A DNA stretch of 64,000 bases from Tritonibacter horizontis (GTDB lineage Bacteria; Pseudomonadota; Alphaproteobacteria; Rhodobacterales; Rhodobacteraceae), in the NCBI RefSeq assembly GCF_001518015.1, contig NZ_LPUY01000025.1:1-64000 (forward strand), read 5' to 3'. This document shows positions 9,051 to 56,663 of the stretch, piece by piece. The stretch's first letter is position 1; each line of letters starts with the position of its first letter. A model generated the notes under the pieces. It had not been told where the DNA came from and searched no databases. It worked only from the letters and a program-made list of their open reading frames with translations. Both the position numbers and the translations under genes were made by a program.

Positions 9051-10357
9051 GTGCACTTATGATTGGTTGGGCCGGTGTTGCCGCCCTGTTCGCGCTGCTT
9101 TCGATCCGCACGCCGATTGGTGTGGCACTGATGATTGTCTCAATTATTGGCATCACCGTAATGACAAATCTGACGGCGGCTTTTGGTATTATCAGCGCGT
9201 TGCCCTTCAGCTTTATCGGGGATTGGTCGCTGACGGCCATTCCGATGTTTCTCTTGATGGGTTTTATCGCCGCCAGTACCGGCCTGACGGCGGGCGCTTT
9301 TGATCTGTTGCGGATGCTGTTAGCGCGGGTGCCAGGTGGGTTGGCCTCGGCCAGTGTCGGGGCATGCGGTCTTTTCGCTGCTGCCTCGGGCTCGAGCATC
9401 GCCACGACCGCTGCCATGTCGCGCATCGCTGTGCCCGAAATGCTGCGGGCAAACTATCACCCTTCATTGGCTACAGGAGTGGTGGCCGCATCCGGCACAT
9501 TGGGCTCACTCATCCCGCCGTCCATCCTTATGGTGCTCTACGGGATTTTTACTGAGCAATCTATAGGCCAGCTTTTTATTGCGGGACTGATCCCAGGTGT
9601 TCTTTCCGCGCTGGTCTATATGGGTATGATCACGATGCGCTGCACGCTGAAACCATCGCTTGCACCGCCGGTAAAAAACCCTTTCGCATGGCCGAAATTC
9701 TGGACGCTTCTGCTATCCGTCTGGCCATTCCCGGTGCTGATCTTTGGTGTATTGGGGGGCATATTCGGCGGCTTTTTCACACCGACCGAAGCAGGCAGTG
9801 TCGGGGCGTTTTTGGCCCTGTCCATCGCCGCCTTCCGCCGCAGCCTGACACGCCAAGCCCTGGGCACAGCCATCCGCCAAACAGTGATCGCCACGTCGTC
9901 GATCTTCTTTCTTTCGATCGGTGCCATCATGTTCACCCGTTTCATGGGCCTGTCGGGTGTGCCGCGTGCGTTGGCTGACGGCATGCTGGCGGTGTCGGAC
10001 AACCAGATCATCATCATCGTGATGATCGCGGTGCTGTTCGTCATCCTTGGCATGGTGATCGATTCAATCGGTTTGATGCTGCTGACCCTGCCCGTGCTGC
10101 TGCCGGTACTGGAAGCAGCGGATGTAAACCTGATCTGGTTCGGCATCATCACCATCAAACTGCTGGAGATCGGTCTGGTTACACCACCCGTGGGTCTGAA
10201 CCTTTATGTCCTGCATGGCGCGCTGGCCGGGCGGGTAAAGCTTAGGGACATCATGTCCGGCACAACATGGTTCATCGCCATGGATCTATTGACCCTAATT
10301 CTGCTGATCGCTTTTCCCGCGATCAGCCTGTTCCTGCCGTCATTCATGACCAACTGA
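9047..10357 (+). CDS. dctM: TRAP transporter large permease (DctM)
   Basis: A 436-residue polytopic protein with about twelve hydrophobic helices and the hallmarks of DctM: the glycine- and serine-rich stretch AAASGSSIATTAAMSRIAVPEM, PPSILMVLYG, GGFFTPTEAGSVGAF and the C-terminal GLVTPPVGLNLYV. It moves organic acids with a sodium gradient, taking them from the DctP binding protein. It overlaps dctQ by four bases and precedes dctP by 26 bases. Length and motifs are complete, so it is expected to be functional. Confidence 0.92.
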   Translation: MSALMIGWAGVAALFALLSIRTPIGVALMIVSIIGITVMTNLTAAFGIISALPFSFIGDWSLTAIPMFLLMGFIAASTGLTAGAFDLLRMLLARVPGGLASASVGACGLFAAASGSSIATTAAMSRIAVPEMLRANYHPSLATGVVAASGTLGSLIPPSILMVLYGIFTEQSIGQLFIAGLIPGVLSALVYMGMITMRCTLKPSLAPPVKNPFAWPKFWTLLLSVWPFPVLIFGVLGGIFGGFFTPTEAGSVGAFLALSIAAFRRSLTRQALGTAIRQTVIATSSIFFLSIGAIMFTRFMGLSGVPRALADGMLAVSDNQIIIIVMIAVLFVILGMVIDSIGLMLLTLPVLLPVLEAADVNLIWFGIITIKLLEIGLVTPPVGLNLYVLHGALAGRVKLRDIMSGTTWFIAMDLLTLILLIAFPAISLFLPSFMTN

Positions 10358-10383
10358 CAAAATTTCAACTGGAGGAGACGACC

Positions 10384-11505
10384 ATGAAAATATTTAAAAC
10401 TCTCAGCGCGACGTTGCTTGGGCTGGCCATTGCCGCGCCTGCGGCAGCCGAAGAGTATAACGCAAACCATTTCTTCGCCGAGCGGCATTCGATGGTGCGC
10501 GGCCCCTATGTGGACTTTGCCAAACGTGTGGCCGAACGCACCAATGGCGAGGTGACGTTCCGTGTGTTTTCCGCAGGCTCCTTGCTGCCGCCGGCTTCGT
10601 CCTTGCAGGGGGTGCGTGACGGTGTGGCACAGGTCAGCTATCATGCTGGCACCTACACCCCGGCCGAGTTGCCGATTGCCAACCTGATCGGCAACATGGC
10701 GTTCTACAATACCGATCCGATGGTCATGGCCTTTGCATCGACCGAATTCGGCCTGACAAATCCTGCCGCCCTCGCAGAATGGGCTGACAATGGCGTAGTG
10801 TTCGGCGGTGGCTATTCAACGTCGCAGTATTTCATGATGTGCAACACAGACGTTGAAACCCTAGCAGATGTAAAAGGCAAGCGGATGCGCATGGCCGGTG
10901 GCGCTTGGTCCCGCTTTGCCGAATTTGTCGGTGCCGTTCCGGTTTCGATCCCGTCAAGCGAGATGTACACTGGGCTTGACACAGGGTCGCTGGATTGCGC
11001 GGTTGCGGCTGCGGATGCCCTCGACAGCTTTAGTCTCAAGGACGTCGTCACCTCGATGAATACTCTCGCCATCGGCAACTACTACGCAGGGTTTGAATGG
11101 GGCTATAACGCAGGGTTTTGGCAGGGGCTGACCGCCGAACAGCGCCGCGTTCTGTTCGATGAAATGGCTTATGAGCTGGCGCAGCACCGCGTCGCGTTTG
11201 ACGCCGATGTTGCCACAGCCGTCGCTTCGGCAAAAGACGCCGGCATGACTGTTCTGGACCCTGACGCGGCCTTGCAGCAAGCGCTGGCCGATTTTGTCAT
11301 CGCCGACGAAGCTGCGCTGATTGAAAACGCAACATCGCGCGGTGTGGAAAATCCCGATCAAGTTCTGACAGCCTTCAAAGCGGTCATCGACCGCTGGGAA
11401 GCGTTGCTGAAAGATGTTGATCGCACCGACACTGAAACACTCGCCGCTTTGGCGCGCAGCGAAATCTATGATCGGCTCGATGCTGATACCTACGGCGTCA
11501 ACTAA
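10384..11505 (+). CDS. dctP: TRAP transporter substrate-binding protein (DctP)
   Basis: The ATG at 10384, behind a GGAGGAG ribosome site, gives a 373-residue precursor with a Sec signal peptide (cleavage after APAAAA/E near residue 23). The mature protein is a DctP-type periplasmic binding protein; the segment GKRMRMAGG and the central pattern leading to GSLDCAVAAADALDSF match the ligand-carboxylate-binding region. The ligand cannot be assigned, although aromatic or aliphatic carboxylates are usual. A terminator follows directly, so the hydrolase at 11569 may be expressed by read-through or on its own. Confidence 0.88.
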   Translation: MKIFKTLSATLLGLAIAAPAAAEEYNANHFFAERHSMVRGPYVDFAKRVAERTNGEVTFRVFSAGSLLPPASSLQGVRDGVAQVSYHAGTYTPAELPIANLIGNMAFYNTDPMVMAFASTEFGLTNPAALAEWADNGVVFGGGYSTSQYFMMCNTDVETLADVKGKRMRMAGGAWSRFAEFVGAVPVSIPSSEMYTGLDTGSLDCAVAAADALDSFSLKDVVTSMNTLAIGNYYAGFEWGYNAGFWQGLTAEQRRVLFDEMAYELAQHRVAFDADVATAVASAKDAGMTVLDPDAALQQALADFVIADEAALIENATSRGVENPDQVLTAFKAVIDRWEALLKDVDRTDTETLAALARSEIYDRLDADTYGVN

Positions 11506-35312: not shown

Positions 35313-35639
35313 GCCGTTGCCATTTATGGATTTTTTGTCCGCTTTATGCTCAGCTCGAATTTAGGTCACGAAAGCCAAAATGATGTTTGAAGTCGAACCA
35401 ACAGAAGAGAGCGAAGACTTTTGCGACTGCTGCGGTAGTCAATCTCGATCTGTTTGGGGCTACGTCCATGAAACCGATGGAGCTACGGTCGCAAGTTACT
35501 TCCTTCATTGGACAGTAGGTAAGTCCCTTGAAGACCATCCCGCAAATTTTGATTTGATCTACGGCGCTTGGGGCGATGGAGCTACCAAGAATGATCGATG
35601 TGAGCTACTCCCCATCTCTTGGACAGGATCTGGCGTAAT

Positions 35640-36515
35640 TTAAGCTACTCGTTGCACCTGCTGATCGGGTTGGTTGATATCATTTCTCTGCCAGTATACC
35701 AGCGCCGGTGGCTTGCCGCCGAGGGCTGAGTGCGGGCGCTGGTGGTTGTAGAAGGTCATCCATTTCCGGATGGCCGCCTTTGTTTCAGAACCGGTCTCCC
35801 AGGCATGTAGGTAAACGCACTCGTATTTCAGGGTGCGCCATAGCCTCTCGATGAAGATGTTGTCGAGGAACCGACCTTTTCCATCCATCGAGATGCGCAC
35901 GCCGGATCGCCGCAACCGATCGGTCCAGACGAAGGATGTGAACTGAGATCCTTGGTCGGTATTCATGATCTCGGGCGGGCCGAACTTGTGGATGGCCTCG
36001 TTCAACGCTTCGACGCAGAAGTCGGCCTCCAGGGTGTTCGAGATCCGCCAGGACAGAACCTTTCGGGTGTGCCAGTCCATGATCGCCACGAGGTAGAGGA
36101 ACCCGCGGCGCATCGGCAGATAAGTGATGTCCGAGCACCAGACCCGGTTCGGGCGATCCACCCGCAGACCTCGTAACAGGTAGGGATAGGTCTTGTGTCC
36201 CTTCGTCGGCCTGCTTGTGTTGGGCTTTTGGTAAATCGGCATGAGCCCCATCAGGCGCATCAGCCGCCGTATCCGCTTCTCGTTCACCAGGTGGCCGTCG
36301 TTGCGCAGGTGCCAGGTCATCTGTCGAACGCCGAAGAACGGCGTCTCCAGGAACTGCTCATCAATCCGCCGCATCAGGCCGAGGTTCTGCTCGGTTTCGC
36401 CCTTCGGTTCATAGTAATAGGATGAACGCGCGATCGACAGCAGCTTGCACTGCTGGCCAATGGACAGATCCGGGTGGTCAGGCTCGATCATGCCGCGCCT
36501 CACTTCCCGCCCCAA
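35640..36515 (-). CDS. IS3-family transposase OrfB (rve integrase domain)
   Basis: A 291-residue OrfB with an HTH_21 region (FLETPFFGVRQMTWHLRNDGHLVNEKRIRRLMRLMGL) and the DDE integrase core: WCSDITYLP (first Asp), NTDQGSQFTS (second Asp) and FIERLWRTLKYE (Glu). It overlaps orfA by 16 bases in another frame; in IS3 elements the two are joined by a programmed -1 frameshift to make the active transposase, and a T6G run in the orfA end is a candidate slip site. It appears intact. Confidence 0.92.
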   Translation of the reverse strand: MGREVRRGMIEPDHPDLSIGQQCKLLSIARSSYYYEPKGETEQNLGLMRRIDEQFLETPFFGVRQMTWHLRNDGHLVNEKRIRRLMRLMGLMPIYQKPNTSRPTKGHKTYPYLLRGLRVDRPNRVWCSDITYLPMRRGFLYLVAIMDWHTRKVLSWRISNTLEADFCVEALNEAIHKFGPPEIMNTDQGSQFTSFVWTDRLRRSGVRISMDGKGRFLDNIFIERLWRTLKYECVYLHAWETGSETKAAIRKWMTFYNHQRPHSALGGKPPALVYWQRNDINQPDQQVQRVA

Positions 36516-36793
36516 GGCTTCAGCTTTCGTTCCAAAAAAGAGTTGGCCACTGCCAGCTCCCCGATCTTGGCGTGGAGCTCCTTCACCTGCTCTTCATCAA
36601 TTGTAGCCTTCTTGCTGCTCCCGCGCTCGAACACGCCGGACGCGCCTTCGAGCAGGGCTCGCTTCCATTGGTGGATCATCGTCGGATGCACACCGAACCG
36701 GCTTGCCAGCTCGGCGGCCGTCTCCTCGCCCTTCAGGGCTTCCAGCGCGACTTTCGCCTTGAACTCGGGCGCGTGCTGTTTGCGTTTCGACAT
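36500..36793 (-). CDS. IS3-family OrfA (HTH_Tnp_1)
   Basis: A 97-residue helix-turn-helix protein: MSKRKQHAPEFKAKVALEAL, ASRFGVHPTMIHQWKRALLEG, then a leucine-rich coiled-coil segment IDEEQVKELHAKIGELAVANSFLERKL. It binds the element ends and is the N-terminal part of the OrfAB fusion. Intact, unlike its relative at 56338-56583, which has lost an internal segment. Confidence 0.9.
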   Translation of the reverse strand: MSKRKQHAPEFKAKVALEALKGEETAAELASRFGVHPTMIHQWKRALLEGASGVFERGSSKKATIDEEQVKELHAKIGELAVANSFLERKLKPWGGK

Positions 36794-37367
36794 CTCTGAT
36801 CTCCTTCTCGTCGAAGATCAGCAGACTGCAAATCGTAGCTTATGTCAGTGTCCGAATTTCGGGGGGGAGCTCAATGTGCAATTTCCCTAGTTCACTTTGA
36901 GACTGAAGGCGTCCCCGGAATTTCAGTGATTAATGCAAACGACCGCCCAATCGCATCTAGCGAACTTGTTGGTTCTGCTATGAGCCGCGAAGACATTATA
37001 GGCACGCCTCTGGCTAAGCAGGTATTCGAAATATTCGATTCAGTCATTCAGCAGGACAATCGTCTATGCTGACATTGGCTGCGTCGCAGATCAGAGAAAC
37101 GTTGGGCTGAGCGCAGCCATTTGACGGATCAGCGAGTACGACTGCTATGAAACGAAAAACGGCACTGCCATTGGTCAAAGCACTTAGATGTCGATCCGTT
37201 CAGCGATACTCAAAGGCACAAAACCTGAAAATTGTGCAGCAAAGTGATTGTGCGCTTCGGCGACTAGTTCTGAGAGTTCCATATGTCCTACTCGCTCGGT
37301 CAATTTCAGTTCGAAACACCTATGGTGTTGGCCAGTTCAGGCTTGAAACGCTGCAACGCTATACTGG

Positions 37368-41591: not shown

Positions 41592-41895
41592 CGACCACTG
41601 ACCATCGCGCGCGCAAGGGCCTGAACAATGCGATCGAAGGGTCGCACCGGCCGGCACGTAAGCGAGAGAAGATCTTCGGCAAATTCAAATCCCACCAGCA
41701 GGCACAGAGGTTTTTGGCCGCACATGACCAGATCAACTTGCTCTTCCGTCCCCGCCGCTATCAACTGAACGCAACTTCATACCGCCACGCCCGCTCCAAT
41801 GCTTTCAGCCTCTGGGCAGTCTACACCGCGGAATTGGTAGCATGATCCTGCCTATGCCAAGCTTCGCAAGCTGATGTCAACAACTTGACAATACC
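41592..41895 (+). mobile_element. IS6-family fragment, left copy
   Basis: Contains the C-terminal part of an IS6-family transposase (HRARKGLNNAIEGSHRPARK, KFKSHQQAQRFLAAHDQINLLFRPRR, SYRHARSNAF; stop near 41845), then the element end GGTATTGTCAAGTTG (inverted, ending 41895). The 5' part of the gene is missing, replaced by the ISKra4 element. The last 155 bases are repeated in inverted orientation at 43943-44098. Confidence 0.8.
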
Positions 41896-42012
41896 CTGGA
41901 GACCCCCTCGACTACATCTTACAGAATTCGGCTACATCTCTGCTAAAGACGACAGTAGCGGCAGGGAAATAGGTTCTTCACCAGTAACAGCTCAAACGAA
42001 AGGGCCAGGCTT

Positions 42013-43934: not shown

Positions 43935-43942
43935 GTTAGGAG

Positions 43943-44098
43943 GGTATTGTCAAGTTGTTGACATCAGCTTGCGAAGCTTGGCATAGGCAGGATCATACTA
44001 CCAATTTCGCGGTGTAATCTGCACAAAGGCTGAAAGCGTTGGAGCGGGCGTGGCGGTATGAAGTTGCGTACAATTGATAGCGGCGGGGACGGATGAAG
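43943..44098 (-). mobile_element. IS6-family fragment, right copy (inverted)
   Basis: The reverse complement of the last 155 bases of the left copy at 41740-41895, with a few differences: element end GGTATTGTCAAGTTG at 43943 and transposase C-terminus FIRPRRYQLYATSYRHARSNAF in the minus direction. The rest of the transposase is missing. With the left copy it brackets the DUF1349/AraC pair. Confidence 0.8.
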
Positions 44099-44268: not shown

Positions 44269-44688
44269 TTAGCTAGCCAGGCCTAAGTTGCGTAGCGACT
44301 CAATTGCAACAGCTTCATCCTGATCAGATGACGCCCCTGAAATCCCAATCGACCCAAGTGTGACACCGGCCTTTCGGGTCAGCTCGCCACCGGGCTGGGG
44401 TGCAAAACCTTGGGTGCTAACCGTGGAAATCGACGTTGCGAACCGATCAGGCAGGACACCTTGTTCAAACAGAGCGTACAGCTGCCGTGTGCTCATACCC
44501 ATGCCAATTGCTGCATTGGCCTTGGCAAGAGCAATCGGATGGCGTAGCGACCCTGCCCCGTCCTGAGTTGCGGCGAATTTGATCAGCCCGCCTGCGTCAA
44601 GAATGACGATAGCCAGAGGAGGCAATTGGTGCTGATCTGCCTGTGACAATGCTGCTTCACCCAGAGCCTTCGCAATCTCAAACTGCAT
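44269..44688 (-). CDS. DUF336/HbpS-GlcG-like heme-binding family protein
   Basis: From the ATG at 44688 behind GGGAGG, the protein has 139 residues with the DUF336 pattern: ALGEAALSQADQHQLPPLAIVILDAGGLIKFAATQDGAG, HPIALAKANAAIGMGMSTRQL and a glycine-rich end GGVTLG/SIGISGASSDQDEAVAIESL. Family members bind heme or accompany aromatic and glycolate catabolism. It overlaps the dioxygenase gene by 11 bases and ends the LysR-GSHQR-dioxygenase-DUF336 operon. An upstream frame to 44772 lies inside the dioxygenase gene. Confidence 0.82.
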   Translation of the reverse strand: MQFEIAKALGEAALSQADQHQLPPLAIVILDAGGLIKFAATQDGAGSLRHPIALAKANAAIGMGMSTRQLYALFEQGVLPDRFATSISTVSTQGFAPQPGGELTRKAGVTLGSIGISGASSDQDEAVAIESLRNLGLAS

Positions 44689-45460
44689 ATTGGACCTCCC
44701 ACGCGGCCATCCCGATGGATCCATAGCTGTAGGATCTATGCAGATTGGACATCCTGCTTTCTGGCTGCACATCGCATATCCCAGCGATCACGATCAGAGG
44801 CAGAAAATGCTCGGTTGTGGGGTGGGACGCCCGCCCGATGTCTAGAGTTTGAAACTGGAATAGCTCCGGCCAGTTTCGTTCAACAAGAACGGTTTCAAGC
44901 CAGTCATCAAAGGCCGTGGCCCAATCTGGCGCAGAGGTTCCCTCACGTGCGATATGGCGCAGATTATGCACGGTTGCACCCGAACCGATGACCATGATGT
45001 CCAGCGCCGCCAGCTTTGCTAGGGCGCGCCCAATCTCAAACAGGCTCTGCGGACTGCTCTGTCTGGGCAGGGACAGCTGCACAATGGGAACCTCTGCCTT
45101 GGGGAGCATCAGCATCAAAGGGATCCAGGCCCCGTGATCAAGTCCGCGGTTTTCGTTGTCTGTTACCATGATACCGTCTACGTTGAGCGCGTTCTTTGTT
45201 GTTTTTGCAAGCCAGGGGTCACTCTTTGCGGGGTAGCGCAATGCGTGAAGCGCTGACCCAAACCCACCAAAGTCATGGATGGTCTCCAAGTGATTGGCTG
45301 TGGTTATCTGCAAACCAGAGGATTCCCAATGTGCCGAGATGATCACAATGCCCTTGGGAGCGGGCCGGTTGGCGAGAATGCCGCCCAAGAACTGAGCTGC
45401 AGGAATGTCAGACAGGGCAAGATCCGGTGCGCCGTGGGGCAGAAAAAAGGCGGGCTGCAT
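44678..45460 (-). CDS. LigB-type extradiol ring-cleavage dioxygenase
   Basis: A 260-residue class III extradiol dioxygenase of the 4,5-DOPA dioxygenase (YgiD) type. Metal- and proton-relay histidines are visible: H9 (FLPHGAP), H44 (SAHWES), H109 (LDHGAW), H163 (TVHNLRH) and the HPTTEHFLPL segment. It would open a catechol ring with Fe(II) or Zn(II). It begins two bases after the GSHQR gene and overlaps the DUF336 gene, so all act together, probably on a hydroquinone- or catechol-type compound. Confidence 0.88.
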   Translation of the reverse strand: MQPAFFLPHGAPDLALSDIPAAQFLGGILANRPAPKGIVIISAHWESSGLQITTANHLETIHDFGGFGSALHALRYPAKSDPWLAKTTKNALNVDGIMVTDNENRGLDHGAWIPLMLMLPKAEVPIVQLSLPRQSSPQSLFEIGRALAKLAALDIMVIGSGATVHNLRHIAREGTSAPDWATAFDDWLETVLVERNWPELFQFQTLDIGRASHPTTEHFLPLIVIAGICDVQPESRMSNLHRSYSYGSIGMAAWEVQYAV

Positions 45461-45462
45461 AG

Positions 45463-46425
45463 TTAAAACCCCAGCTCTGACAGGTCCGGCCCTGCTGGGA
45501 CAATGCCGCTTGGGTTCAGCGATTTGATCGAATAGTATCCCGCCTTGATGTGATCTATCCGGACGGTGTCACGAATGCCGGGAATGTCCAGCGTGGTCTT
45601 GAGAAACCGCTGTAAGTTCGGGTAGTCGGCAATGCGACGACGATTGGTTTTGAACAAGCCCACATAAGCCGCATCAAAACGGATCAGGGTAACATAGGCC
45701 CGAAGATCAGATTCGGTGATAGCGTCACCCAACAAAAACCGCCGCCCGTCTGACAAAAGGTCTTCCAGCTTGTCCAGCATTGCAAAAATCTGATCGTTTG
45801 CTTCTTCATAGGCAAATTGAGTGCTGGCAAATCCCGCTTTGTAAACACCATTGTTCAAGTTATCATAAAGCTGGATATTCAGTGCATCGATATCAGCCCG
45901 CATGGCCTCGGGGTATAGATCAACACCGGTACTTGAAAACTTGGAGAATCCCGAGTTCAAGATCCTCAGGATGTCCGCACTTTCATTGTTGACGATACGG
46001 TTTGAATGTTTGTCCCAGAGCACGGGAACTGTCGCCCGGCCAGACACATGGGGGTCACTATGGGTATAAAACCCATGCATATGTGTTGTACCGATCAACT
46101 CGTCATTTGGGTTTGAACCAGGAAAATCCCCGAACTTCCAGCCCTGATCCGAAAGGCGAGGATCAACGACCGAAATTGAAATCACCTCTTCCAGACCTTT
46201 CAGAGCGCGAGCCATCAAAGTGCGCGAGGCCCAAGGGCAAATGTAGGCTACAATCAGATGATACCGGCCAGCAGCTGCAGGAAGCGCGTTTTGCCCTTCG
46301 GGCCCTGGCGTGCCATCGGGAGTGATCCAGCCCCGGAAAACCGAATCCTGCCGGACAAACCGTCCCTTGGCATCAGCGGCCTGTACCGGTTGCCATTCTG
46401 CATCCCATTTTCCATCGACTAGCAT
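45463..46425 (-). CDS. Glutathionyl-hydroquinone reductase (YqjG/PcpF-like)
   Basis: A 320-residue Xi-class glutathione transferase. The N-terminal thioredoxin fold has the catalytic cysteine in AYICPWASRT and the pattern SVVDPRLSDQGWKFG; the C-terminal helical domain has NNGVYKAGFASTQFAYEEA and LGDAITESDLRAYVTLIRFDAAYVGLFKTN. Such enzymes reduce glutathionyl-(chloro)hydroquinones and release GSH, a repair step in chlorinated aromatic degradation. It starts the operon with the dioxygenase; a LysR gene lies just upstream on the same strand. Confidence 0.9.
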   Translation of the reverse strand: MLVDGKWDAEWQPVQAADAKGRFVRQDSVFRGWITPDGTPGPEGQNALPAAAGRYHLIVAYICPWASRTLMARALKGLEEVISISVVDPRLSDQGWKFGDFPGSNPNDELIGTTHMHGFYTHSDPHVSGRATVPVLWDKHSNRIVNNESADILRILNSGFSKFSSTGVDLYPEAMRADIDALNIQLYDNLNNGVYKAGFASTQFAYEEANDQIFAMLDKLEDLLSDGRRFLLGDAITESDLRAYVTLIRFDAAYVGLFKTNRRRIADYPNLQRFLKTTLDIPGIRDTVRIDHIKAGYYSIKSLNPSGIVPAGPDLSELGF

Positions 46426-46529: not shown

Positions 46530-47411
46530 TTAGCGCAGAGCAGATCGCATGAAATCAACAAAGACTCGAACCTTTGTCGAAAGATGGCGGTTTTCCAGAT
46601 AGACCGCAAACAGGCCAAGGCTCTCAGGCCAGAACGGCTTGAGTACAGGCATCAGCCTGCCAGCCTCTAGATCGTCGGCCACGACATATTCCGGGCTAAG
46701 CAAAATGCCAGCATCTTTCAGCGCAAATCGACGGGCAGCGCTTGCGCTGTTGGCACGCAGTCTTCCTTTAACGTCTATCCGTTCCGGTCCATCAGGCCCG
46801 GCAAATCGCCAACCAGTTCCAAATCGATAATTGCTGTCGATGATACAGTCATGAGAAAGCAGGTCACTGGGCTTTTCGGGGTTGCCCTGTGTCATGATGT
46901 ACTGCGGGCTGGCGGAATAGGTCAGCCGTGTTTCGGAAATCCTGGTCGCGACAAAGCTGGAATCCTCAAGATCCCCAATGCGGATGGCAACATCGATCCC
47001 TTCGTCCATCAGATTGGCGTATCGGTCGGACAGGCGCAGGTCGATCTGAACCTGGGGAAAGGTCAGAGCAAAATCAGCAATAGCGTCCGCCAGATAGAGT
47101 TCGCCATAAGTTGCGGGCGCGGCGACCGTCAACTTGCCCTGCGGCGCGCGATGATCGTTGCGCACCGCGGCTGTCAATTCGTTGAAATCCTCCAAAAGCT
47201 GAGTGCACTTGTCGAGGAAGGCCGCCCCCGTTTCCGTCAGCCGTACATTGCGCGTCGAGCGAATAAACATCTGCGCGCCCAGCTGGTCTTCCAGGGTTCG
47301 CACATATTTGCTGACCAGTTGTGGCGAGGTACCAAGCCGATTTGCGGCGCTCGTAAACGATTTGGTTTCAGCAACGGCAACATAGGCATTCATCATGTCA
47401 ATACGATCCAT
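46530..47411 (-). CDS. LysR-family transcriptional regulator
   Basis: The ATG at 47411 (MDRIDMMNAYVAVAETKSFTSAANRLGTSPQLVSKYVRTLE) gives 293 residues of a CrgA/DsdC-like LysR protein; the upstream frame to 47495 is an unlikely leader. It has an intact DNA-binding domain and effector domain. It is on the same strand as the GSHQR operon, 104 bases upstream, and divergent from the membrane protein and YceI genes at 47524, so it may control either. Confidence 0.85.
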   Translation of the reverse strand: MDRIDMMNAYVAVAETKSFTSAANRLGTSPQLVSKYVRTLEDQLGAQMFIRSTRNVRLTETGAAFLDKCTQLLEDFNELTAAVRNDHRAPQGKLTVAAPATYGELYLADAIADFALTFPQVQIDLRLSDRYANLMDEGIDVAIRIGDLEDSSFVATRISETRLTYSASPQYIMTQGNPEKPSDLLSHDCIIDSNYRFGTGWRFAGPDGPERIDVKGRLRANSASAARRFALKDAGILLSPEYVVADDLEAGRLMPVLKPFWPESLGLFAVYLENRHLSTKVRVFVDFMRSALR

Positions 47412-47523
47412 GACTATCAACGTACCAGTGATAATCATTAAACAGAACCCTGTCTTTTTTACAAAAGGGTGAAGAAGTATCTGATTAGCAACCACGGTCT
47501 AGTCGCGTTCAGAGGTCTGCCTG

Positions 47524-48974: not shown

Positions 48975-49006
48975 GTGCGGCACGGCCAGCCCGTGCCGCA
49001 CCATTT
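48975..49006 (+). terminator. Intrinsic terminator after yceI
   Basis: GTGCGGCACGG and its complement (48975-48985 and 48991-49001) form a perfect 11-base stem with a 5-base loop, followed by CATTTTC. It lies 16 bases after the YceI stop. Confidence 0.85.
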
Positions 49007-49101: not shown

Positions 49102-49977
49102 ATGGAATTTCGACAGCTTAGATATTTTGTGGCAGTTGCCGAGGAGGGGAATATTGGACGCGCGGCCCAGCGGCTCAATGTCTCCCAACCCCCCGTAAGT
49201 CGGCAAATCCTTGCCCTGGAACAGGAACTCGGCACGCAATTGTTGCGCAGGACACCGTTTGGCGTGACTTTGACCGATGCGGGCAGTGTGTTTTTCCGAG
49301 ATGCGCAGGTTGTTCTCGCAAACTCTCGAAATGCCGTTGACCGCGCGCAGGCGGTGGATCGCGGTGAAATTGGGCGACTGGATATTGGTTTCATGGGGGC
49401 AACAGTCTATGCAGCAGTCCCTTCCGCAATCAAAACCCTGAAGAAGCAGAACCCCAGTATCTCGCTATCCCTGACGCAAATGAATAAAACCGAGCAGATC
49501 AACGCAATCCGTGAAGGCCGGATACATGTTGGGTTTGGCCGGTATTTTGCAGAAACTGCAGGGATCACTGTCCGACATCTATCTGCCGAAAAGATGGTTG
49601 CTGCTGTACCGCTAAGCCACCCCTTAGCAACGCAAGATACGGTTCGTTTGTTGGAATTGGCAGGCTCCCCTATTGTAGGATATCCGTCAGTAGACCGACC
49701 CAACCTGACAGACGAAATCATCTCGATTTTTCGGTCAGCGAACCATGAAATTGAAATGGTGGATGTTGTCGGAGATTCCAACGCAGCACTGTGCATGGTG
49801 GCCAGCGGCGATGTTTGCACTCTTGTTCCGATGTCTGTGACAATCGTGGATTTTCCGGATGTTAACTACATTCCAATCGAAGACGACCACACCAAGATCA
49901 AAACCAGCTTCATTCACTCGTCAGAATATGTTGCGCCTGTGTTGCGTGTTTTTCTTGATAGCCTCGGTTTTCAGTAA
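49102..49977 (+). CDS. CatR/ClcR-type LysR regulator
   Basis: The 291-residue protein starts MEFRQLRYFVAVAEEGNIGRAAQRLNVSQPPVSRQILALEQELG, the N-terminus characteristic of CatM/BenM/ClcR regulators, which sense muconates or chloromuconates. It is encoded in the same direction as, and 109 bases ahead of, the intradiol dioxygenase. That gap contains TCCAAT...ATTGGA inverted segments (about 49989-50028) that could be the binding site. Co-directional placement is less common than the divergent layout of clc/cat operons. Confidence 0.88.
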   Translation: MEFRQLRYFVAVAEEGNIGRAAQRLNVSQPPVSRQILALEQELGTQLLRRTPFGVTLTDAGSVFFRDAQVVLANSRNAVDRAQAVDRGEIGRLDIGFMGATVYAAVPSAIKTLKKQNPSISLSLTQMNKTEQINAIREGRIHVGFGRYFAETAGITVRHLSAEKMVAAVPLSHPLATQDTVRLLELAGSPIVGYPSVDRPNLTDEIISIFRSANHEIEMVDVVGDSNAALCMVASGDVCTLVPMSVTIVDFPDVNYIPIEDDHTKIKTSFIHSSEYVAPVLRVFLDSLGFQ

Positions 49978-50086
49978 GATAAGGTCATTCCAATTTGGTA
50001 TCGAGAGCAGCCTCAATTGGTATTGGACCGCATGAGCGCCTTAACGTTAGTTTTCTGCCTAAGGTTCGCTGACAGGAGGAGGTAAC

Positions 50087-50860
50087 ATGTCTGACAGAGT
50101 GAAAGAAGTTGTCCCGGATTTAATCTACGCTATCCGCTCAACCCTGAAAAAGCACGGGGTCACGTTCGAGGAATACGGGGCCGCGATGCAGTACCTGATC
50201 CGAGTGCAGGAAACCGGCGAAGTTCCTCTGTTTGTTGACGCTTTTTTCAACGCCACCATTGTCGAGATCGACAATGTGACCCGCGAGGGAACGCAAGCGG
50301 ATATTCAAGGGCCGTACTATCTCAACTCAGAAGCATACCAGATTATTTCGGAACGCCTTCCACATCGTCCAATAGATGAAAACGCGCAGGACATGGTCAT
50401 TCGCGGTCAGATCACAGATACTGACGGCAACCCCCTCGCTGGTGCAGAGCTGGATATCTGGCATTCAACTCCGGATGGTCTGTATTCAGGCGTTCATGAC
50501 GGCATTGATGCCAAATACTGCCGCGGGCGGGTTATCACAGATGCTCAAGGGCGCTACAGTGTCAAATCGAAACTGCCGGTGCCATATCAAATTCCGAACC
50601 AGGGCCCCACTGGCGAACTTCTAGAGCAGCACCTTGGTCGCCATTCCTGGAGACCGGCCCATATTCACTTCTGGGCGCGTGCTGACGGGCGGCGTGATCT
50701 CATAAACCAAGCCTACTTTGAAAATGGTGAGTGGGTTGGTGATGACTGTTGCGAAACTGATCACCTTGATCTGGTGGTTCCTGAACTCATCGAAAACGGT
50801 GCGCGGGTCATGGAAGTGAACTTTGCGCTCGATCCAGCACTGGCCATCGCCGCGGAATAA
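50087..50860 (+). CDS. Intradiol (chloro)catechol/hydroxyquinol 1,2-dioxygenase
   Basis: A 257-residue non-heme Fe(III) intradiol dioxygenase behind a strong AGGAGG site. An N-terminal dimerisation domain is followed by the catalytic domain: QGPYYLNSEAYQI, GNPLAGAELDIWHSTPDGLYSG, and the iron ligands in KYCRGRVITD and PVPYQIPNQGPTGELL (Tyr) and WRPAHIHFWA (two His). It cleaves a catechol, chlorocatechol or hydroxyquinol ring to a muconate or maleylacetate. The neighbouring cycloisomerase favours a catechol type; maleylacetate reductase fits chlorocatechol or hydroxyquinol. Confidence 0.9.
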   Translation: MSDRVKEVVPDLIYAIRSTLKKHGVTFEEYGAAMQYLIRVQETGEVPLFVDAFFNATIVEIDNVTREGTQADIQGPYYLNSEAYQIISERLPHRPIDENAQDMVIRGQITDTDGNPLAGAELDIWHSTPDGLYSGVHDGIDAKYCRGRVITDAQGRYSVKSKLPVPYQIPNQGPTGELLEQHLGRHSWRPAHIHFWARADGRRDLINQAYFENGEWVGDDCCETDHLDLVVPELIENGARVMEVNFALDPALAIAAE

Positions 50861-51024
50861 GCCGCGCCAAGGATGGGATTTTCGAAATCACGCAAAGAGT
50901 TGTCACTGTTGATTTGACGGTGGCAACAAACACCCCCGCAAGCTCTCCGTACAGAGGCCCTGCGCCTGAAAGCTGCGCTTGATTGGCAGGCCGCCTCGGG
51001 AAAATGTGAACAAAAGGCATTGAA

Positions 51025-52101
51025 ATGTCCAAATCTATTCAAAGCATCAACGGTCAGAAAATACGGTTTGGCGCGGGAATCCGGGATCAGGTAAGCCAAG
51101 AGATGGAGGCATCAGGTCTTGGAAAAGCGCTGGTTCTGTCCACAGAATTTCAAGCGGAAATGGCTGAGGGCGTCGCAAAATCAATGGGCGCAAAAACCGG
51201 TGGGATCTTTTCTGGCGCGACAATGCACACGCCGGTCGAGGTAACCGAACAGGCCATGGAGGCTGTCGCTGCCAGCGGCGCGGATTGCGTAGTTGCCGTT
51301 GGGGGAGGGTCGACAACGGGCTTGGGCAAGGCAATTGCCCTGCGCACCGACCTGCCACAAATCGTCATTCCAACGACCTACGCTGGCAGCGAAGCAACGT
51401 CGATTTTGGGACAGACCGAGAACGGCGTGAAGACCACTCGGAAGGCACCAGGAATTCTGCCCGAGATTGTCCTCTACGACCCAGAGCTGGTCGCAAGCCT
51501 GCCCGTACCGCTGACGATGACCAGCGGCCTAAATGCAATCGCGCATTCAGCCGAAGGCTTGTATGCGAAAGAACGCCGTGATGAGATCAGTAGACTTGCC
51601 CGTGAGGGTATTCGAGCCATGGCAAAGGGCCTGCCAATTCTGAAAGGTGACCCCGGAAATCTTAAAGCACGCGAAGAGACATTGTATGGGGCCTGGGCCT
51701 GTGGCACCGTTCTGGGAGAGGTCGGCATGGCGCTGCACCACAAGATTTGCCACACGCTTGGCGGCACACTTAATCTGCCTCACTCTGAAACCCACGCTAT
51801 AATTTTGCCGCACGCGATTGCCTACAACGAAGTGGAAGTGCCTGATCTACTTGCTCCGATAGTGGCCATTCTGGGCGGTGATACCCCAAGCCAGGCACTT
51901 TGGCATTTTTCCCAAAAACTGGGTGCGCCGCGGTCATTGCTAGAGCTAGGCGTTTCTGAAAAGGATATTGACCGGATCATCGAGGTTTCGCTCGTTAATG
52001 CCTATTGGAACCCCAGAGAGATCAGCCGAAATGGGCTGCGTGTTTTGCTGATGAACGCGCTGGCAGGTAATCCGCCATCCTCTTCCAAAGAGGCGGCATA
52101 G
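51025..52101 (+). CDS. Maleylacetate reductase
   Basis: A 358-residue iron-containing alcohol dehydrogenase family enzyme of the maleylacetate reductase type. NAD-binding GGGSTTGLGKAIAL, IVIPTTYAGSEATSILGQTE and HHKICHTLGGTLNLPHSETHAIILPH are characteristic. It reduces maleylacetate to 3-oxoadipate, the step that joins chlorocatechol or hydroxyquinol degradation to the ketoadipate pathway. It lies 164 bases after the dioxygenase and two bases before the cycloisomerase. Confidence 0.92.
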   Translation: MSKSIQSINGQKIRFGAGIRDQVSQEMEASGLGKALVLSTEFQAEMAEGVAKSMGAKTGGIFSGATMHTPVEVTEQAMEAVAASGADCVVAVGGGSTTGLGKAIALRTDLPQIVIPTTYAGSEATSILGQTENGVKTTRKAPGILPEIVLYDPELVASLPVPLTMTSGLNAIAHSAEGLYAKERRDEISRLAREGIRAMAKGLPILKGDPGNLKAREETLYGAWACGTVLGEVGMALHHKICHTLGGTLNLPHSETHAIILPHAIAYNEVEVPDLLAPIVAILGGDTPSQALWHFSQKLGAPRSLLELGVSEKDIDRIIEVSLVNAYWNPREISRNGLRVLLMNALAGNPPSSSKEAA

Positions 52102-52103
52102 AT

Positions 52104-53279
52104 ATGTCAGAGTTTTGTATCGAAAGCCTGACGGTTACTCGGATAAATGTGCCGCTCATCAAACCCATCTCGATGGCCTTTGGAGCGGTGTCCACCGCAC
52201 ATATCCTATTGGTTCGGATACGCGACAGCGATGGCGTTAAAGGGGTTGGCGAAGCGACGCTGCTGGGCGGTCCGCACTGGAACGAAGAAAGTGCTGAAAG
52301 CGCTTTGGCGATCATCGAAACGTATCTTGCCCCCGCCATCAAAGGCGTGAAGTTTTCTGGTATTGAGGCCCTATCAAACAGGTTGGTTTCCCTTGTCCGG
52401 CGCAATTCACTTGCGCGAAGTGCTGTTGAAAAAGCAGCGTTTGACTTAATTGGGCGTCGATTGGGTGTTCCCATATCGGATCTCTTGGGGGGAAGATGTC
52501 GGCAGGAGATACCTGTTGCCTGGACCCTGTCCAATGGTGGTGCCGAGCGAGAGATCAGTGATGGCGAAGAAGCCATCGAAAAACGTGCACATGCTTGTTT
52601 TAAGCTGAAATTTGGTCATGCTGACCCCTCTGATGACATTGCGCGCGCCAGTAAAATCATTGATCACTTCAGCGGGCGGGCAAGGGTTATCGCCGACGTT
52701 AACCAGGGGTGGGACGAAGTGACAGCGGCCCGCGCATTTCCAGCCTTGCAAGAGGCTGGGTTGCTGGCCATTGAGCAACCTCTCCCCGCCGAAAACCTTG
52801 AGGGAATTGCAAGGTTGCGGCACGGCTTGGGCTTTGATGTTATTGCGGACGAGGCGGCGACGGGGCCTGAAGCTACATTTAAATTGGCCGCGGCACTGGC
52901 CGCGTCCGCAGTGTCGCTCAAGCCCAGCCGGGACGGTGGCTTATTGGCGACAAAACGAACGGCGGCAATTGCAGATGCCGCTGGCATGAAGCTCTATGGC
53001 GGCGGCATGATCGAGACCTCTGTGGGAACTGCCGCAAGCGCGCATGTCTACGCGACGGTTCCTAAACTCACTTTCGGGTGCGAGCTTTTTGGACCGCTGA
53101 AGCTGGTAGAAGACATCGTTCAAGACTCCGTCAAGATCAAGGGTGGTGCTCTCAAGGTGCCGGAGAGCCCGGGGCTGGGTGTGGAAATCGACGAAGAAAA
53201 GATCGCGCGCCTTGTCACGGGAGAGCCAATAACACGGGTCTACTTAGCGCCTTTTGACCAAAGCGAAAATCGGGTTTGA
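52104..53279 (+). CDS. Muconate/chloromuconate cycloisomerase
   Basis: A 391-residue enolase-superfamily enzyme. The N-terminal capping domain begins TVTRINVPLIKPISMAFGAV. The barrel shows the KxK acid-base motif (CFKLKFGH), metal ligands in IADVNQGW, IEQPLPAE and VIADEAATG, and the opposite lysine in LKPSRDGG. It lactonises muconate or chloromuconate. It is two bases after the reductase stop and so co-translated, while the usual dienelactone hydrolase gene is absent from the operon. Confidence 0.9.
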   Translation: MSEFCIESLTVTRINVPLIKPISMAFGAVSTAHILLVRIRDSDGVKGVGEATLLGGPHWNEESAESALAIIETYLAPAIKGVKFSGIEALSNRLVSLVRRNSLARSAVEKAAFDLIGRRLGVPISDLLGGRCRQEIPVAWTLSNGGAEREISDGEEAIEKRAHACFKLKFGHADPSDDIARASKIIDHFSGRARVIADVNQGWDEVTAARAFPALQEAGLLAIEQPLPAENLEGIARLRHGLGFDVIADEAATGPEATFKLAAALAASAVSLKPSRDGGLLATKRTAAIADAAGMKLYGGGMIETSVGTAASAHVYATVPKLTFGCELFGPLKLVEDIVQDSVKIKGGALKVPESPGLGVEIDEEKIARLVTGEPITRVYLAPFDQSENRV

Positions 53280-53357
53280 CAGGCCATCTCGCTAATGCGG
53301 AAACGGTAATCTCGTAAGCGCAGCAACGTCTCTCTAGCAAGCAAATTGGTTAACGCG

Positions 53358-54257
53358 ATGACAATTGGCCCTCTTCCCAAAATGAAACAGGCACAAATCG
53401 GCCTGATGACCGTGAATGCTCTCGTTGACTCCGTCGGGCTTACTCGAACCCCTGAGGAATTGTTCAAAAACCCTCCAAGAGATCTGTTTGAACGCGAGCA
53501 GTCTTGGCTTGTGCCCGATTATGGCGACGCCGCCACCCAGCGACTTGTTCTGGCCTATCAGTCCTTTCTGGTAACTTTGGGGGATACGCAGATTTTGGTG
53601 GATTGTGCAGTTGGTGAGGACGGGAATTTTCCGGTCCGGCCGGACTGGCATCGTGCCAAGTCCAATTGGCTCAATCACCTTGGCCAATGCGGGCTTGCGC
53701 CAGAAGATATCGACGCGGTGGTCCTGACACATCTCCATATGGATCACACGGGGTGGCTGACGCGGTTGGACTGTGATGAATGGCGCCCCACGTTCCCCAA
53801 CGCCGTGCATATGACAACCCAAAGAGAGTTGGATTACTGGACCTCATCCGAGGCCGCATTCGACTATATGTCGACTTCCATCGAGGACAGTATCAGACCT
53901 GTTCTTGATGCAGGGCTTTTGAAATGTATCGTGCCCGAAACCGAGGTCGCCGAGGGGTTGTTCACAGTTGATTTGGCTGGGCACTCTCCTGGTATGATTG
54001 GTTTAGAGTATCGCAAAAACGGGCGTGTAATTGCGTCCTTTAGCGCAGATTTGATGCACCACCCTCTTCAAGTTGCCGAACCGGATGTATGTACGGCTTT
54101 CTGCTTCGATCCGCTTCAGGCTGCAAGTATAAGACATAAAAAACTGGCCGAATATGCCGATCAACAAACTATTGTTTTTTGCGGTCACTTTCCGGGTCAA
54201 TCTGCCGGAAGAATCGAAGATTATGAACTCGGGTTTCGGTTTGTACCTCTCGATTAG
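53358..54257 (+). CDS. MBL-fold metallohydrolase of the ortho-cleavage operon
   Basis: From ATG 53358 (an in-frame TTG at 53346 is possible) the protein has 299 residues. The metallo-beta-lactamase motif is LTHLHMDHTGW, with a second-site His in LAGHSPGM, an Asp in ASFSADLMHH and a terminal His in FCGHFPGQ. It has no signal peptide, so it acts in the cytoplasm. It occupies the place where a dienelactone hydrolase is expected, and MBL enzymes often hydrolyse lactones, so a lactonase role is a reasonable hypothesis. Confidence 0.8.
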   Translation: MTIGPLPKMKQAQIGLMTVNALVDSVGLTRTPEELFKNPPRDLFEREQSWLVPDYGDAATQRLVLAYQSFLVTLGDTQILVDCAVGEDGNFPVRPDWHRAKSNWLNHLGQCGLAPEDIDAVVLTHLHMDHTGWLTRLDCDEWRPTFPNAVHMTTQRELDYWTSSEAAFDYMSTSIEDSIRPVLDAGLLKCIVPETEVAEGLFTVDLAGHSPGMIGLEYRKNGRVIASFSADLMHHPLQVAEPDVCTAFCFDPLQAASIRHKKLAEYADQQTIVFCGHFPGQSAGRIEDYELGFRFVPLD

Positions 54258-54328
54258 CACAAGCGATCAACAGCACGGAAAGCAGCTGGCATTGGTTGCA
54301 TTCCCACGCAGAACTTCAGGAGATAGCA

Positions 54329-55165
54329 ATGACAAAACCCTGCATCATTTGCGTCGCCATCACTGGCTCCCTGCCAACGAAGAAAAACAATCCAGCGGTC
54401 CCGATTACGATCGCGGAGCAAATTGAAAGTACACAAGAGGCTTTTGAGGCTGGTGCGACAATTGCGCATTGTCATGTGCGCAATGACGACCAAACTCCCA
54501 GCTCAGATCCCGAAGCATTTGCGCGTTTGCTTGAAGGATTGCGCACGCATTGCCCTGGTATGATCGTTCAGTTTTCGACGGGTGGGCGCTCTGGTTCAGG
54601 AAAGGAGCGAGGCGAAATGTTGCGTCTGGCGCCGGACATGGCTTCCCTCGCGGTTGGTTCTAATAACTTCCCTTCCCGGGTGTATGAAAATGCGCCGGAA
54701 TTGGTGGATTGGCTGGCTGAGGAAATGCGCAGATACCATGTGAAACCCGAGATTGAGGCTTTTGACCTGAGCCACATCTATCAAGCTGCAGCCATGAACC
54801 AAGATGGGCGCATCCTTGGTAAACTATACGTGCAATTCGTGATGGGCGTAGCAAATGCCATGCCCGCTGATCGAGACGTCTTTGATTATTACGTGAAAAC
54901 GGTACGGCGCATTGCGCCCAACGCAGAATGGTGCGCCGCAGGTATCGGCCAACACCAGCTACGCCTTAACGAATGGAGCGTGATCAACGGCGGGCATGCC
55001 CGAACCGGTCTGGAAGACAACGTTCGTTTGGATCGGGATACGCTGGCGGCCTCCAACGCGCAGCTTGTTGGTTTGGTCGTCGATATTTGCAATAGAAATG
55101 AACGTCCCGTGGCAAATTGGCAGCAAGCCCGACAGATTCTGGATCTTCGAGCACCAACTTTGTAG
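54329..55165 (+). CDS. DUF849/BKACE beta-keto acid cleavage enzyme
   Basis: From ATG 54329 behind AGGAGA the protein has 278 residues of the BKACE (3-keto-5-aminohexanoate cleavage enzyme) family. Visible features are the zinc site GATIAHCHVRN, IVQFSTGGRSG, EIEAFDLSHIYQAAAM and the C-terminal GGHARTGLEDNVRL. Family members react a beta-keto acid with acetyl-CoA to give acetoacetate and a new acyl-CoA. In this operon the natural candidate is 3-oxoadipate, which would give succinyl-CoA and replace PcaIJ plus PcaF. The substrate is inference. Confidence 0.85.
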   Translation: MTKPCIICVAITGSLPTKKNNPAVPITIAEQIESTQEAFEAGATIAHCHVRNDDQTPSSDPEAFARLLEGLRTHCPGMIVQFSTGGRSGSGKERGEMLRLAPDMASLAVGSNNFPSRVYENAPELVDWLAEEMRRYHVKPEIEAFDLSHIYQAAAMNQDGRILGKLYVQFVMGVANAMPADRDVFDYYVKTVRRIAPNAEWCAAGIGQHQLRLNEWSVINGGHARTGLEDNVRLDRDTLAASNAQLVGLVVDICNRNERPVANWQQARQILDLRAPTL

Positions 55166-55476
55166 TGGTCAGTCCAACAATAGATATGAGAATTCGCATC
55201 TCCGCTTTCGTCCAAATCGGACTTTCGATGGGATCTGACGAAGGGTAAGGAAGACCCGTATGTTGTCAGTTTAAGCCAGTTGAAGTGAACAACCGGTGTA
55301 CTAATGTAGCCCCCGCTTGCGGATCTAAACGTACTATTTCGCCCCCAGACGTAAGCGACCCCTACGGTGGCAATTGTTTCCGGGCGTCGCATCTGGCTTC
55401 GGTAGATGGGCCAGTACTTTTGAGTAACCTATCAAGGTAAGCTACTCTCCAATGTTTGGACAGGTTTCAGCGTAAG

Positions 55477-56353
55477 TTAAGTCACTTTTTGCCCCTGCTG
55501 ATCGGGTTTGGTTTTTTCGTTTCTCAGCCAATAGACCACGGCTGGCGGTTTGCCACCAAGGGCGGAGTGGGGGCGCTTTCGGTTGTAGAACTCCACCCAC
55601 TTGCCGACCCCAGTCTTGGCCTCTGATCCGGTGTCCCAGGCGTGCAAATAGACGCATTCGTATTTCAGGCTCCGCCAGAGTCGTTCGATGAAGATGTTGT
55701 CGAGGGACCGCCCCTTGCCGTCCATCGAGATGCGCATGCCGGAGCGGCGCAATCTGTCCGTCCAAGCGAGTGACGTGAACTGCGATCCCTGGTCGTTGTT
55801 CATGATCTCGGGCGGACCGAACCTGGCGATGGCCTCGCTCAATGCCTCGACGCAGAAGTCGGCCTCCAGCGTGTTCGAGATGCGCCAGGCCAGAACCTTG
55901 CGGGTGTGCCAGTCCATGATGGCGACCAGATACAGGAACCCTCGCCGCATTGGCAGATAGGTGATGTCCGCCGCCCAGACCTGATTGGGTCGATCCACTG
56001 GCAGACCGCGCAGAAGATAGGGATAGGTCTTGTGACCCCAAGCTGCCTTGCTGGCTCATGGGCTTCTGGTAGATCGGCATCAAGCCCATGAGCCGCATCA
56101 GCCGCCGGATGCGTTCCTCATTAGCCAGATGACCCTCGTTGCGCAGATGCCACGTCATCTGACGGACACCGAAGAACGGCGTTTCCAGGAACTGCTTGTC
56201 GATCTGACGCATCAGCATCAGGTTCATCGCCGTCTCGCCCTTGGGCGTGTAGTAGAACGACGACCGCGAAATCGACAAAAGCTGACATTGCTTGCCGATG
56301 GACAGCTCGGGATTGCTCGGTTCGATCATGCCGCGCCTTACGTTACGCCCCAA
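55477..56353 (-). pseudogene. IS3-family OrfB with frameshift
   Basis: The N-terminal part (MGRNVRRGMIEPSNPEL to LMRLMGLMPIYQKP) and the C-terminal integrase core (VDRPNQVWAADITYLP, NNDQGSQFTSLAWTD, FIERLWRSLKYE) are both present but in different frames. The frame changes near 56035-56060, shortly after MPIYQKP, where copy 1 continues unbroken. The core frame from 55998 on the minus strand could still give a truncated protein, but no complete transposase. Confidence 0.85.
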
Positions 56354-56583
56354 GGCTTAAGCTTTCTGGCCAAAAAATCATTGGCGACAGCCAACTCCCC
56401 GATCTGGGCGTGCAGTTCTTTCACCTGTTCCTCGTCGATCTCCGGGGCCTTCTTCCAGCTGTGGCTCATCGTCGGGTGAACCCCGAACCGGCTCGCCAGC
56501 TCGGCTACAGTCTGCGCTCCCTTCAGCGCTTCCAGCGCCACCTTCGCCTTGAACTCAGGCGCATGTTGCTTCCGTTTCGACAT
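56338..56583 (-). CDS. IS3-family OrfA with internal deletion
   Basis: The 81-residue protein matches copy 1 OrfA at both ends (MSKRKQHAPEFKAKVALEAL and IDEEQVKELHAQIGELAVAN) but lacks about 16 residues between the helix-turn-helix and the coiled coil, where SWKKAPE replaces the copy 1 segment. Probably non-functional. Confidence 0.75.
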   Translation of the reverse strand: MSKRKQHAPEFKAKVALEALKGAQTVAELASRFGVHPTMSHSWKKAPEIDEEQVKELHAQIGELAVANDFLARKLKPWGVT

Positions 56584-56663
56584 CTCTGATCTCCTCTTCG
56601 TCGAAGACCAGCAGACAACAAATCGTAGCTTGCGTCAGTGTCCGAATTTCGGGGGGTAGCTCA

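Follow-up and report, generated by a model that had tools for sequence, protein, structure and literature searches.

A probable metallo-β-lactamase-fold dienelactone hydrolase in a chlorocatechol-type ortho-cleavage operon of Tritonibacter horizontis

Introduction

Dienelactone hydrolase (DLH) is one of the enzymes that define the ortho pathway of chloroaromatic degradation. The clc and tfd operons, among them the tfd module of pJP4 and its relatives, combine it with a chlorocatechol-type dioxygenase, a cycloisomerase, a maleylacetate reductase (MAR) and a LysR-type regulator. Here we describe an operon at positions 49102-55165 of a 64,000-nucleotide stretch of the Tritonibacter horizontis genome (contig NZ_LPUY01000025.1; hereafter the window), which shares the latter four components. 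Major differences from the clc and tfd operons can be observed. A metallo-β-lactamase (MBL)-fold hydrolase is encoded instead of DLH, a β-keto acid cleavage enzyme (BKACE) is added, and the LysR gene is co-directional rather than divergent.

Published work contains at least two unrelated types of DLH, the α/β-hydrolase type and a Zn-dependent type found in Pseudomonas reinekei MT1. The MT1 trans-DLH is described as Zn-dependent and not based on a Cys triad (PMC4108320), and is placed with the cyclase-like proteins of PF04199 (PMC5341072). The MBL-fold enzyme proposed here would share the metal dependence and the non-Cys-triad chemistry of this enzyme, but belongs to PF00753/PF12706. A dichlorocatechol pathway of marine sponge symbionts is reported to use carboxymethylenebutenolidase, i.e. 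DLH (PMC7313196). A word search of the main text of a study classifying tfd clusters returned no mention of lactamase or metallo-hydrolase (PMC10531765). The open-access literature searched yielded no report of an MBL-type DLH in a chlorocatechol or chloromuconate context, the single match for dienelactone with an MBL fold being a clinical genome report on an unrelated subject; most subscription journals lie outside this search.

The end of the pathway has a closer precedent. In the pca clusters of Methylobacterium, as described in two papers, a DUF849 protein (BKACE, named kce in PMC12379598) replaces PcaIJ and PcaF, which are absent from the cluster, and a one-step cleavage of 3-oxoadipate is proposed (PMC8963497, PMC12379598); the former paper cites Bastard et al. 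2014. Neither the BKACE reaction nor its substitution for PcaIJ/PcaF is therefore new. The Methylobacterium clusters belong to the protocatechuate branch, whereas the operon in the window is of the catechol type and its genome carries PcaF and CoA-transferase genes elsewhere.

Results

An MBL-fold hydrolase is found in place of dienelactone hydrolase

The region contains six open genes, all co-directional on the plus strand. The families listed for them in the initial annotation are confirmed in every case by Pfam, NCBIfam and solved relatives. The absence of DLH that it had noted also stands: between 45 and 58 kb of the window none of 11 plasmid-borne DLHs finds a match at an E-value of 0.05, and 6 of the 11 have no match across the entire window at 0.001.

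At an E-value of 0.001 the only domains recognised in the MBL protein are PF00753 and PF12706. It is neither a classical DLH nor a cyclase-type trans-DLH, with no match to PF01738 or PF04199 at the same threshold, and with 81.1 bits against a cut-off of 360 for NF047979 it is not an AidB N-acyl homoserine lactonase. The AlphaFold model (pLDDT 87.7, pTM 0.89) is closest to methyl parathion hydrolases and a reconstructed lactonase ancestor (8zu5, 1p9e and 5hif; Z ~34 over 274-277 residues). The metal ligands HxHxDH, His, Asp and His are all present. They are invariant in the seven orthologues described below and in 43 other MBL rows of an alignment from which homologues with a reading frame outside 240-360 amino acids were excluded (5 of the rows are duplicates, leaving 38 distinct). 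The predicted fold and the ligands would place the protein in the MBL lactonase/methyl parathion hydrolase group.

While the fold and the ligands are shared with methyl parathion hydrolase and the ancestral dihydrocoumarin hydrolase (1p9e, 5hif), the sequence is only ~25% identical to them, has no signal peptide by eye and carries clade-specific residues beside the metal motif. The seven orthologues form one clade on a long stem with 100/100 support. Their metal motif is THLHMDHTGWL; L134 stands where all 43 other rows have Asn, and H151 where they have Tyr or Phe, again in 43 of 43. These residues suggest a shared, changed specificity.

The MBL gene is linked to chlorocatechol-type dioxygenases

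An MBL profile built from three orthologues was run against 394 genomes from the family to which the window belongs. It finds five loci in four genomes at 490-602 bits; the next match scores 211. TIGR02465, the chlorocatechol 1,2-dioxygenase model, finds five loci in the same four genomes at 326-387 bits, followed by 185 (the MBL and dioxygenase draws comprise 394 family genomes each, and all four positive genomes are present in both). Some TIGR02465 match at an E-value of 1e-40 or better occurs in 137 of the 394 genomes, mostly weaker. Two independent sets of 4 in 394 would coincide by chance with a probability of ~1e-9, a figure that is too favourable because it assumes independence and joint horizontal transfer is possible. 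A scan of named genomes adds two loci above 57% identity, in a Roseitalea metagenome-assembled genome (L025) and in Roseobacter sp. H9 (L026), both with a dioxygenase. The MBL gene adjoins or lies near a chlorocatechol-type dioxygenase gene at all seven orthologous loci (the window, G511, G570, two in G515, L025 and L026), at distances of 141-3785 bp.

Class-wide searches, each among 385 genomes, return only the window's own locus with the dioxygenase profile (E-value 1e-50) and, besides the window, nothing above 230.3 bits with the MBL profile. The 835 plasmid records matched by the MBL are all below 60% identity, so no plasmid-borne orthologue was seen.

We rejected the possibility that the MBL is a chance neighbouring metallo-hydrolase, as its distant relatives have none of the other operon genes in the stretches fetched around them. 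Seven relatives of 24-33% identity from the scan of named genomes (L027-L033) have no other operon gene nearby by tblastn of these stretches, nor does a 38% relative in the stretch fetched from G714. One of these neighbourhoods, in Nitratireductor indicus (L028:6115-12562), places a 31% relative amid open reading frames resembling CoA-transferase, acyl-CoA dehydrogenase and thiolase (translations read by eye); enzymes related to the MBL may thus act in other acyl-CoA pathways.

The seven loci differ in gene order and strand, and the five-gene order, for which the initial annotation had suggested a survey of genomes, recurs at none of the six others within the fetched stretches. The dioxygenase of the window shares 75% identity with its G511 counterpart and 52-54% with those of the remaining loci, MAR is 46-49% and the cycloisomerase 34-39% identical to their counterparts. 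A LysR homologue lies beside the dioxygenase with 75% identity in G511 and 48-55% in L025, L026, G570 and one G515 locus; the other G515 locus gives a 27% partial match only. Judging by these identities, the operons seem to have been put together from different parts, with the dioxygenase-MBL pair persisting. MAR is found at six of the seven loci, which implies maleylacetate and hence an enzyme that opens dienelactone.

Two of the loci have features of their own. Roseobacter sp. H9 (L026:6609-16682) carries a fuller route, with genes for MAR, MBL, methyltransferase, cycloisomerase, LysR, dioxygenase, an aromatic hydroxylase dependent on flavin adenine dinucleotide (FAD) and BKACE, and a pcaB-like gene. 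In G511 the MBL gene is followed by a 288-residue protein (L072:10949-11815) with two carboxymuconolactone decarboxylase stretches (PF02627), whose likeness to PcaC is distant and well below the PcaC cut-off.

No opened plasmid-borne chlorocatechol cluster carries both DLH and MBL

As controls we opened 15 of 63 plasmid records with a chlorocatechol dioxygenase, picked for diversity and thus a non-random set, in which two are plasmids of strain DBS4. In eleven a DLH is annotated and an MBL is lacking, three have neither in the opened stretch, and one has an MBL and no DLH. Both enzymes together occur in none of the 15, as judged by annotation and tblastn of the MBLs.

The record with an MBL and no DLH is pMI2 of Sphingobium sp. 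MI1205, whose cluster shares with the window a dioxygenase, MAR, a cycloisomerase and an MBL of the same superfamily. The MI1205 MBL (L123:6769-7650) is 32% identical to that of the window and falls outside the seven-member clade, and MBLs may therefore have been recruited twice, with MI1205 possibly representing a second, independent event. Its gene sits between a symporter gene and the chlorocatechol-type dioxygenase gene.

No relative of the 11 plasmid clc/tfd DLHs is found at the seven MBL loci, save for one 40-residue match in L025 (E-value 0.003). The proposal of the initial annotation that the MBL enzyme replaces DLH is thus supported by the linkage at seven of seven loci, the lack of a clear local clc/tfd DLH relative and the lactonase fold, while the catalysis itself is a prediction from sequence and model.

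The operon encodes a proposed dienelactone-maleylacetate route

The genes are listed in Table 1. The gaps between them are, in order, 109, 164, 2, 78 and 71 bp for the chosen starts. Two starts lie later than in the mechanical listing of open reading frames: ATG 53358 of the MBL gene, supported by orthologues that open with M[TV][IL]...LP but with no clear ribosome-binding site upstream, and ATG 54329 of the BKACE gene, with AGGAGA just upstream. A terminator-like hairpin lies 5' of the LysR gene (48975-49001). Terminator-like sites (8, compared with 7.7 in shuffled sequence) and promoter-like sites (4, compared with 4.6 expected) are not enriched in the region.

Table 1 Genes of the operon in the window
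Product	Position	Strand	Remarks
LysR-type regulator	49102..49977	+	first gene; PF03466, PF00126
Intradiol ring-cleavage dioxygenase, chlorocatechol type	50087..50860	+	TIGR02465 nearest; PDB 3th1
Maleylacetate reductase (MAR)	51025..52101	+	PDB 3w5s, 3hl0
Muconate/chloromuconate-type cycloisomerase	52104..53279	+	TIGR02534
MBL-fold hydrolase, proposed dienelactone hydrolase	53358..54257	+	PF00753
BKACE, proposed 3-oxoadipate:acetyl-CoA enzyme (to succinyl-CoA + acetoacetate)	54329..55165	+	NF053568

TIGR02465 is the best model for the dioxygenase, with 326.8 bits compared with 219 and 140 for the catechol models. As the score lies under the cut-off of 359.25, which is passed by the dioxygenases of G570 and one G515 locus, we call the enzyme chlorocatechol-type and not an equivalog member. 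The chlorocatechol 1,2-dioxygenase structure 3th1 matches with an E-value of 3.5e-71, and the Tyr/Tyr/His/His motif, which we take to be the iron ligands, is invariant in the alignment. The MAR assignment is clear from its sequence match to maleylacetate reductases of known structure (3w5s, E-value 6e-125; 3hl0, 1.4e-123). The best NCBIfam matches of LysR, which include AlsR, BenM and CatM, are all under their cut-offs. The cycloisomerase passes TIGR02534 with 383.9 bits (cut-off 334.95), a model that spans muconate and chloromuconate enzymes, and solved enzymes of both kinds score similarly with the protein; neither score nor identity separates the two.

This tie leaves room for an ordinary, non-halogenated catechol branch, in which the MBL would be a 3-oxoadipate enol-lactonase analogous to PcaD, or act on muconolactone, and BKACE would take the resulting 3-oxoadipate. 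The MI1205 cluster, which has a muconolactone isomerase gene alongside its MBL, is consistent with such a branch. However, there is no muconolactone isomerase among the operon genes (no search for one was made elsewhere in the genome), MAR would have no role in that route, and two PcaD homologues that exceed the TIGR02427 cut-off are already encoded in the genome. We regard the catechol branch as unlikely. The clear MAR, together with the lack of a muconolactone isomerase in the operon, points instead to the dienelactone-maleylacetate route, which requires a lactone-opening enzyme.

The natural substrate is probably halogenated. The operon contains no upstream hydroxylase, and the best match to a TfdB-like hydroxylase in the same genome is 35% identical.

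BKACE provides a putative exit to central metabolism

The initial annotation had proposed that BKACE acts on 3-oxoadipate, an idea already in print for Methylobacterium. Sequence comparison favours this activity: BKACE scores 486.8 bits against NF053568 ('3-oxoadipate:acetyl-CoA acetyltransferase'; cut-off 350), in the equivalog range, and only 250.5 bits against the lysine-fermentation model (cut-off 382). The BKACE of Roseobacter sp. H9 reaches 498.3 bits with NF053568. The HCH and GLEDN motifs align with HLH and GFEDN of Kce (2y7d), where the HxH and E-D motifs are presumably the metal and catalytic residues.

The further suggestion that PcaIJ and PcaF are bypassed is not supported in that form for this organism, as contig C135 of the same genome carries PcaF (666.5 bits, cut-off 597) with two CoA-transferase genes directly adjoining it. 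BKACE would thus be an additional, alternative exit. Within the fetched stretches it occurs at two of the seven MBL loci, the window and L026. In G570 the corresponding slot is taken by a PcaF thiolase (671.3 bits, cut-off 597) together with a CoA-transferase gene; in one G515 locus, a CoA-transferase gene is accompanied by a thiolase from the same cluster as that of G570. From this gene content, the 3-oxoadipate slot seems to be filled by either BKACE or a thiolase/CoA-transferase pair.

Surroundings of the operon

An IS3-like insertion sequence (IS) follows the BKACE gene (55431-56663; 55442-56353 on the minus strand). It is so called from its likeness to a copy at 35594-36873, whose protein matches integrase-core families. 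The two copies have the same orientation and flank ~20 kb that include the operon. A composite transposon or recent joint transposition is not supported, as the copies are only 75-85% alike.

Upstream, on the minus strand at 44678-46425, a LigB-type extradiol dioxygenase gene (PF02900) is separated by 2 bp from the gene of a 320-residue glutathione S-transferase (PF13410, PF13409), which we assume to be of the glutathionyl-hydroquinone reductase kind. A further LysR gene (46530-47495) lies beside this pair, and the three genes possibly constitute a second ring-cleavage unit adjoining the operon. A 156-nucleotide inverted repeat (41742-41897 and 43941-44096, 94% complementary) encloses ~2 kb that contain an AraC regulator and a gene with weak likeness to DUF1349, and is perhaps a mobile element.

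Discussion

In the proposed route, LysR would sense a pathway compound and the dioxygenase would open the catechol ring to a muconate. The cycloisomerase would lactonise the muconate and, if this is halogenated, halide would be lost to yield dienelactone. The di-metal MBL hydrolase would then convert dienelactone to maleylacetate, the step of the Cys-triad DLH in clc and tfd operons. Reduction by MAR would give 3-oxoadipate, from which BKACE would form succinyl-CoA and acetoacetate with acetyl-CoA. We consider it likely that substituted, probably halogenated catechols are degraded by this operon as a self-contained ortho-cleavage unit, the MBL opening dienelactone and BKACE ending the route.

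Several observations weigh against this assignment. The MBL class is promiscuous and acts on lactones, aryl esters and organophosphates, so the substrate could also be an ester or a different lactone. It is conceivable, too, that the cycloisomerase is a plain muconate enzyme; no cycloisomerase was found in the fetched 13-20 kb of G511 and of either G515 locus, and MAR is missing from the stretch fetched for L025. Joint horizontal transfer may inflate the linkage counts, and of the 17 genomes listed from the same genus not one has the MBL. The CoA-transferases of G570 and G515 reach only 24 and 26 bits with the PcaI model (cut-off 128.5). Finally, DLH-like proteins are encoded elsewhere. The 40-residue match in L025 lies in an α/β-hydrolase (9784-10788) located 0.9 kb past the MBL gene, which scores 30.0 bits with PF01738 (cut-off 21), fits Hydrolase_4 better and has a signal-like N-terminus by eye. 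Genome-wide, a DLH-family protein above 140 bits is present in five of six genomes searched. That of the window's genome, on contig C75, scores 143.6 bits and contains the Cys motif GFCYGG and, by eye, an N-terminus resembling a twin-arginine translocation signal. The sixth genome is G515, which harbours two MBL loci and has no DLH-family match above 32.4 bits; its assembly is 94% complete.

These proteins bear on a second alternative, in which the MBL is accessory and hydrolyses an upstream aryl ester or detoxifies a dead-end lactone (protoanemonin, for example), and dienelactone opens non-enzymatically or by a distant DLH-family protein. The promiscuous phosphotriesterases and esterases among the closest folds fit such a role. 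Yet no DLH-family match above 32.4 bits exists in G515 despite its two MBL loci, and the C75 homologue is ~26% identical to the plasmid DLHs and lies, in the 3.6 kb fetched and read by eye, next to glycine-dehydrogenase and hydroxyacid-dehydrogenase genes. Furthermore, it is the dioxygenase that the MBL accompanies rather than any particular upstream oxygenase: four of the seven loci have the FAD hydroxylase gene. An accessory MBL seems to us slightly less probable than the catechol branch, although the C75 protein might still serve as a helper in the pathway. The third alternative, that BKACE uses a different β-keto acid and is in the operon incidentally, draws on the varied substrates of its family, its presence at so few MBL loci and the PcaF and CoA-transferase genes on C135, but is the most doubtful of all given the NF053568 scores, the pairing of BKACE with MAR, which makes 3-oxoadipate, in two differently ordered clusters, and the occupation of that slot by PcaF in G570.

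Dienelactone opening by the MBL would probably give this step of a known pathway a third solution; the solution for the last step has been proposed before. On the basis of its linkage, the lack of clear DLH relatives at its loci and its modelled fold, the MBL is probably a third, non-homologous DLH. With somewhat more conviction than doubt, we also hold the wider view that it represents a third independent DLH family, beside those of the Cys-triad DLH and the cyclase-type trans-DLH, which has stayed with chlorocatechol-type dioxygenases in several alphaproteobacteria; that MBLs were recruited at least twice (this clade and MI1205), replacing DLH each time; and that with BKACE a halocatechol-to-tricarboxylic acid cycle route arises in which dienelactone opening and 3-oxoadipate cleavage are both carried out by enzymes with no relation to the textbook ones.

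Where an MBL takes over from DLH, the annotated genome would appear incomplete. If the proposal is true, halocatechol catabolism is under-counted in Roseobacter-like and Roseitalea-like bacteria, and the dienelactone step has a third evolutionary origin, on a fold for which pesticide-degrading relatives of lactonases are known. Either BKACE or the thiolase/CoA-transferase route would then be able to end the pathway.

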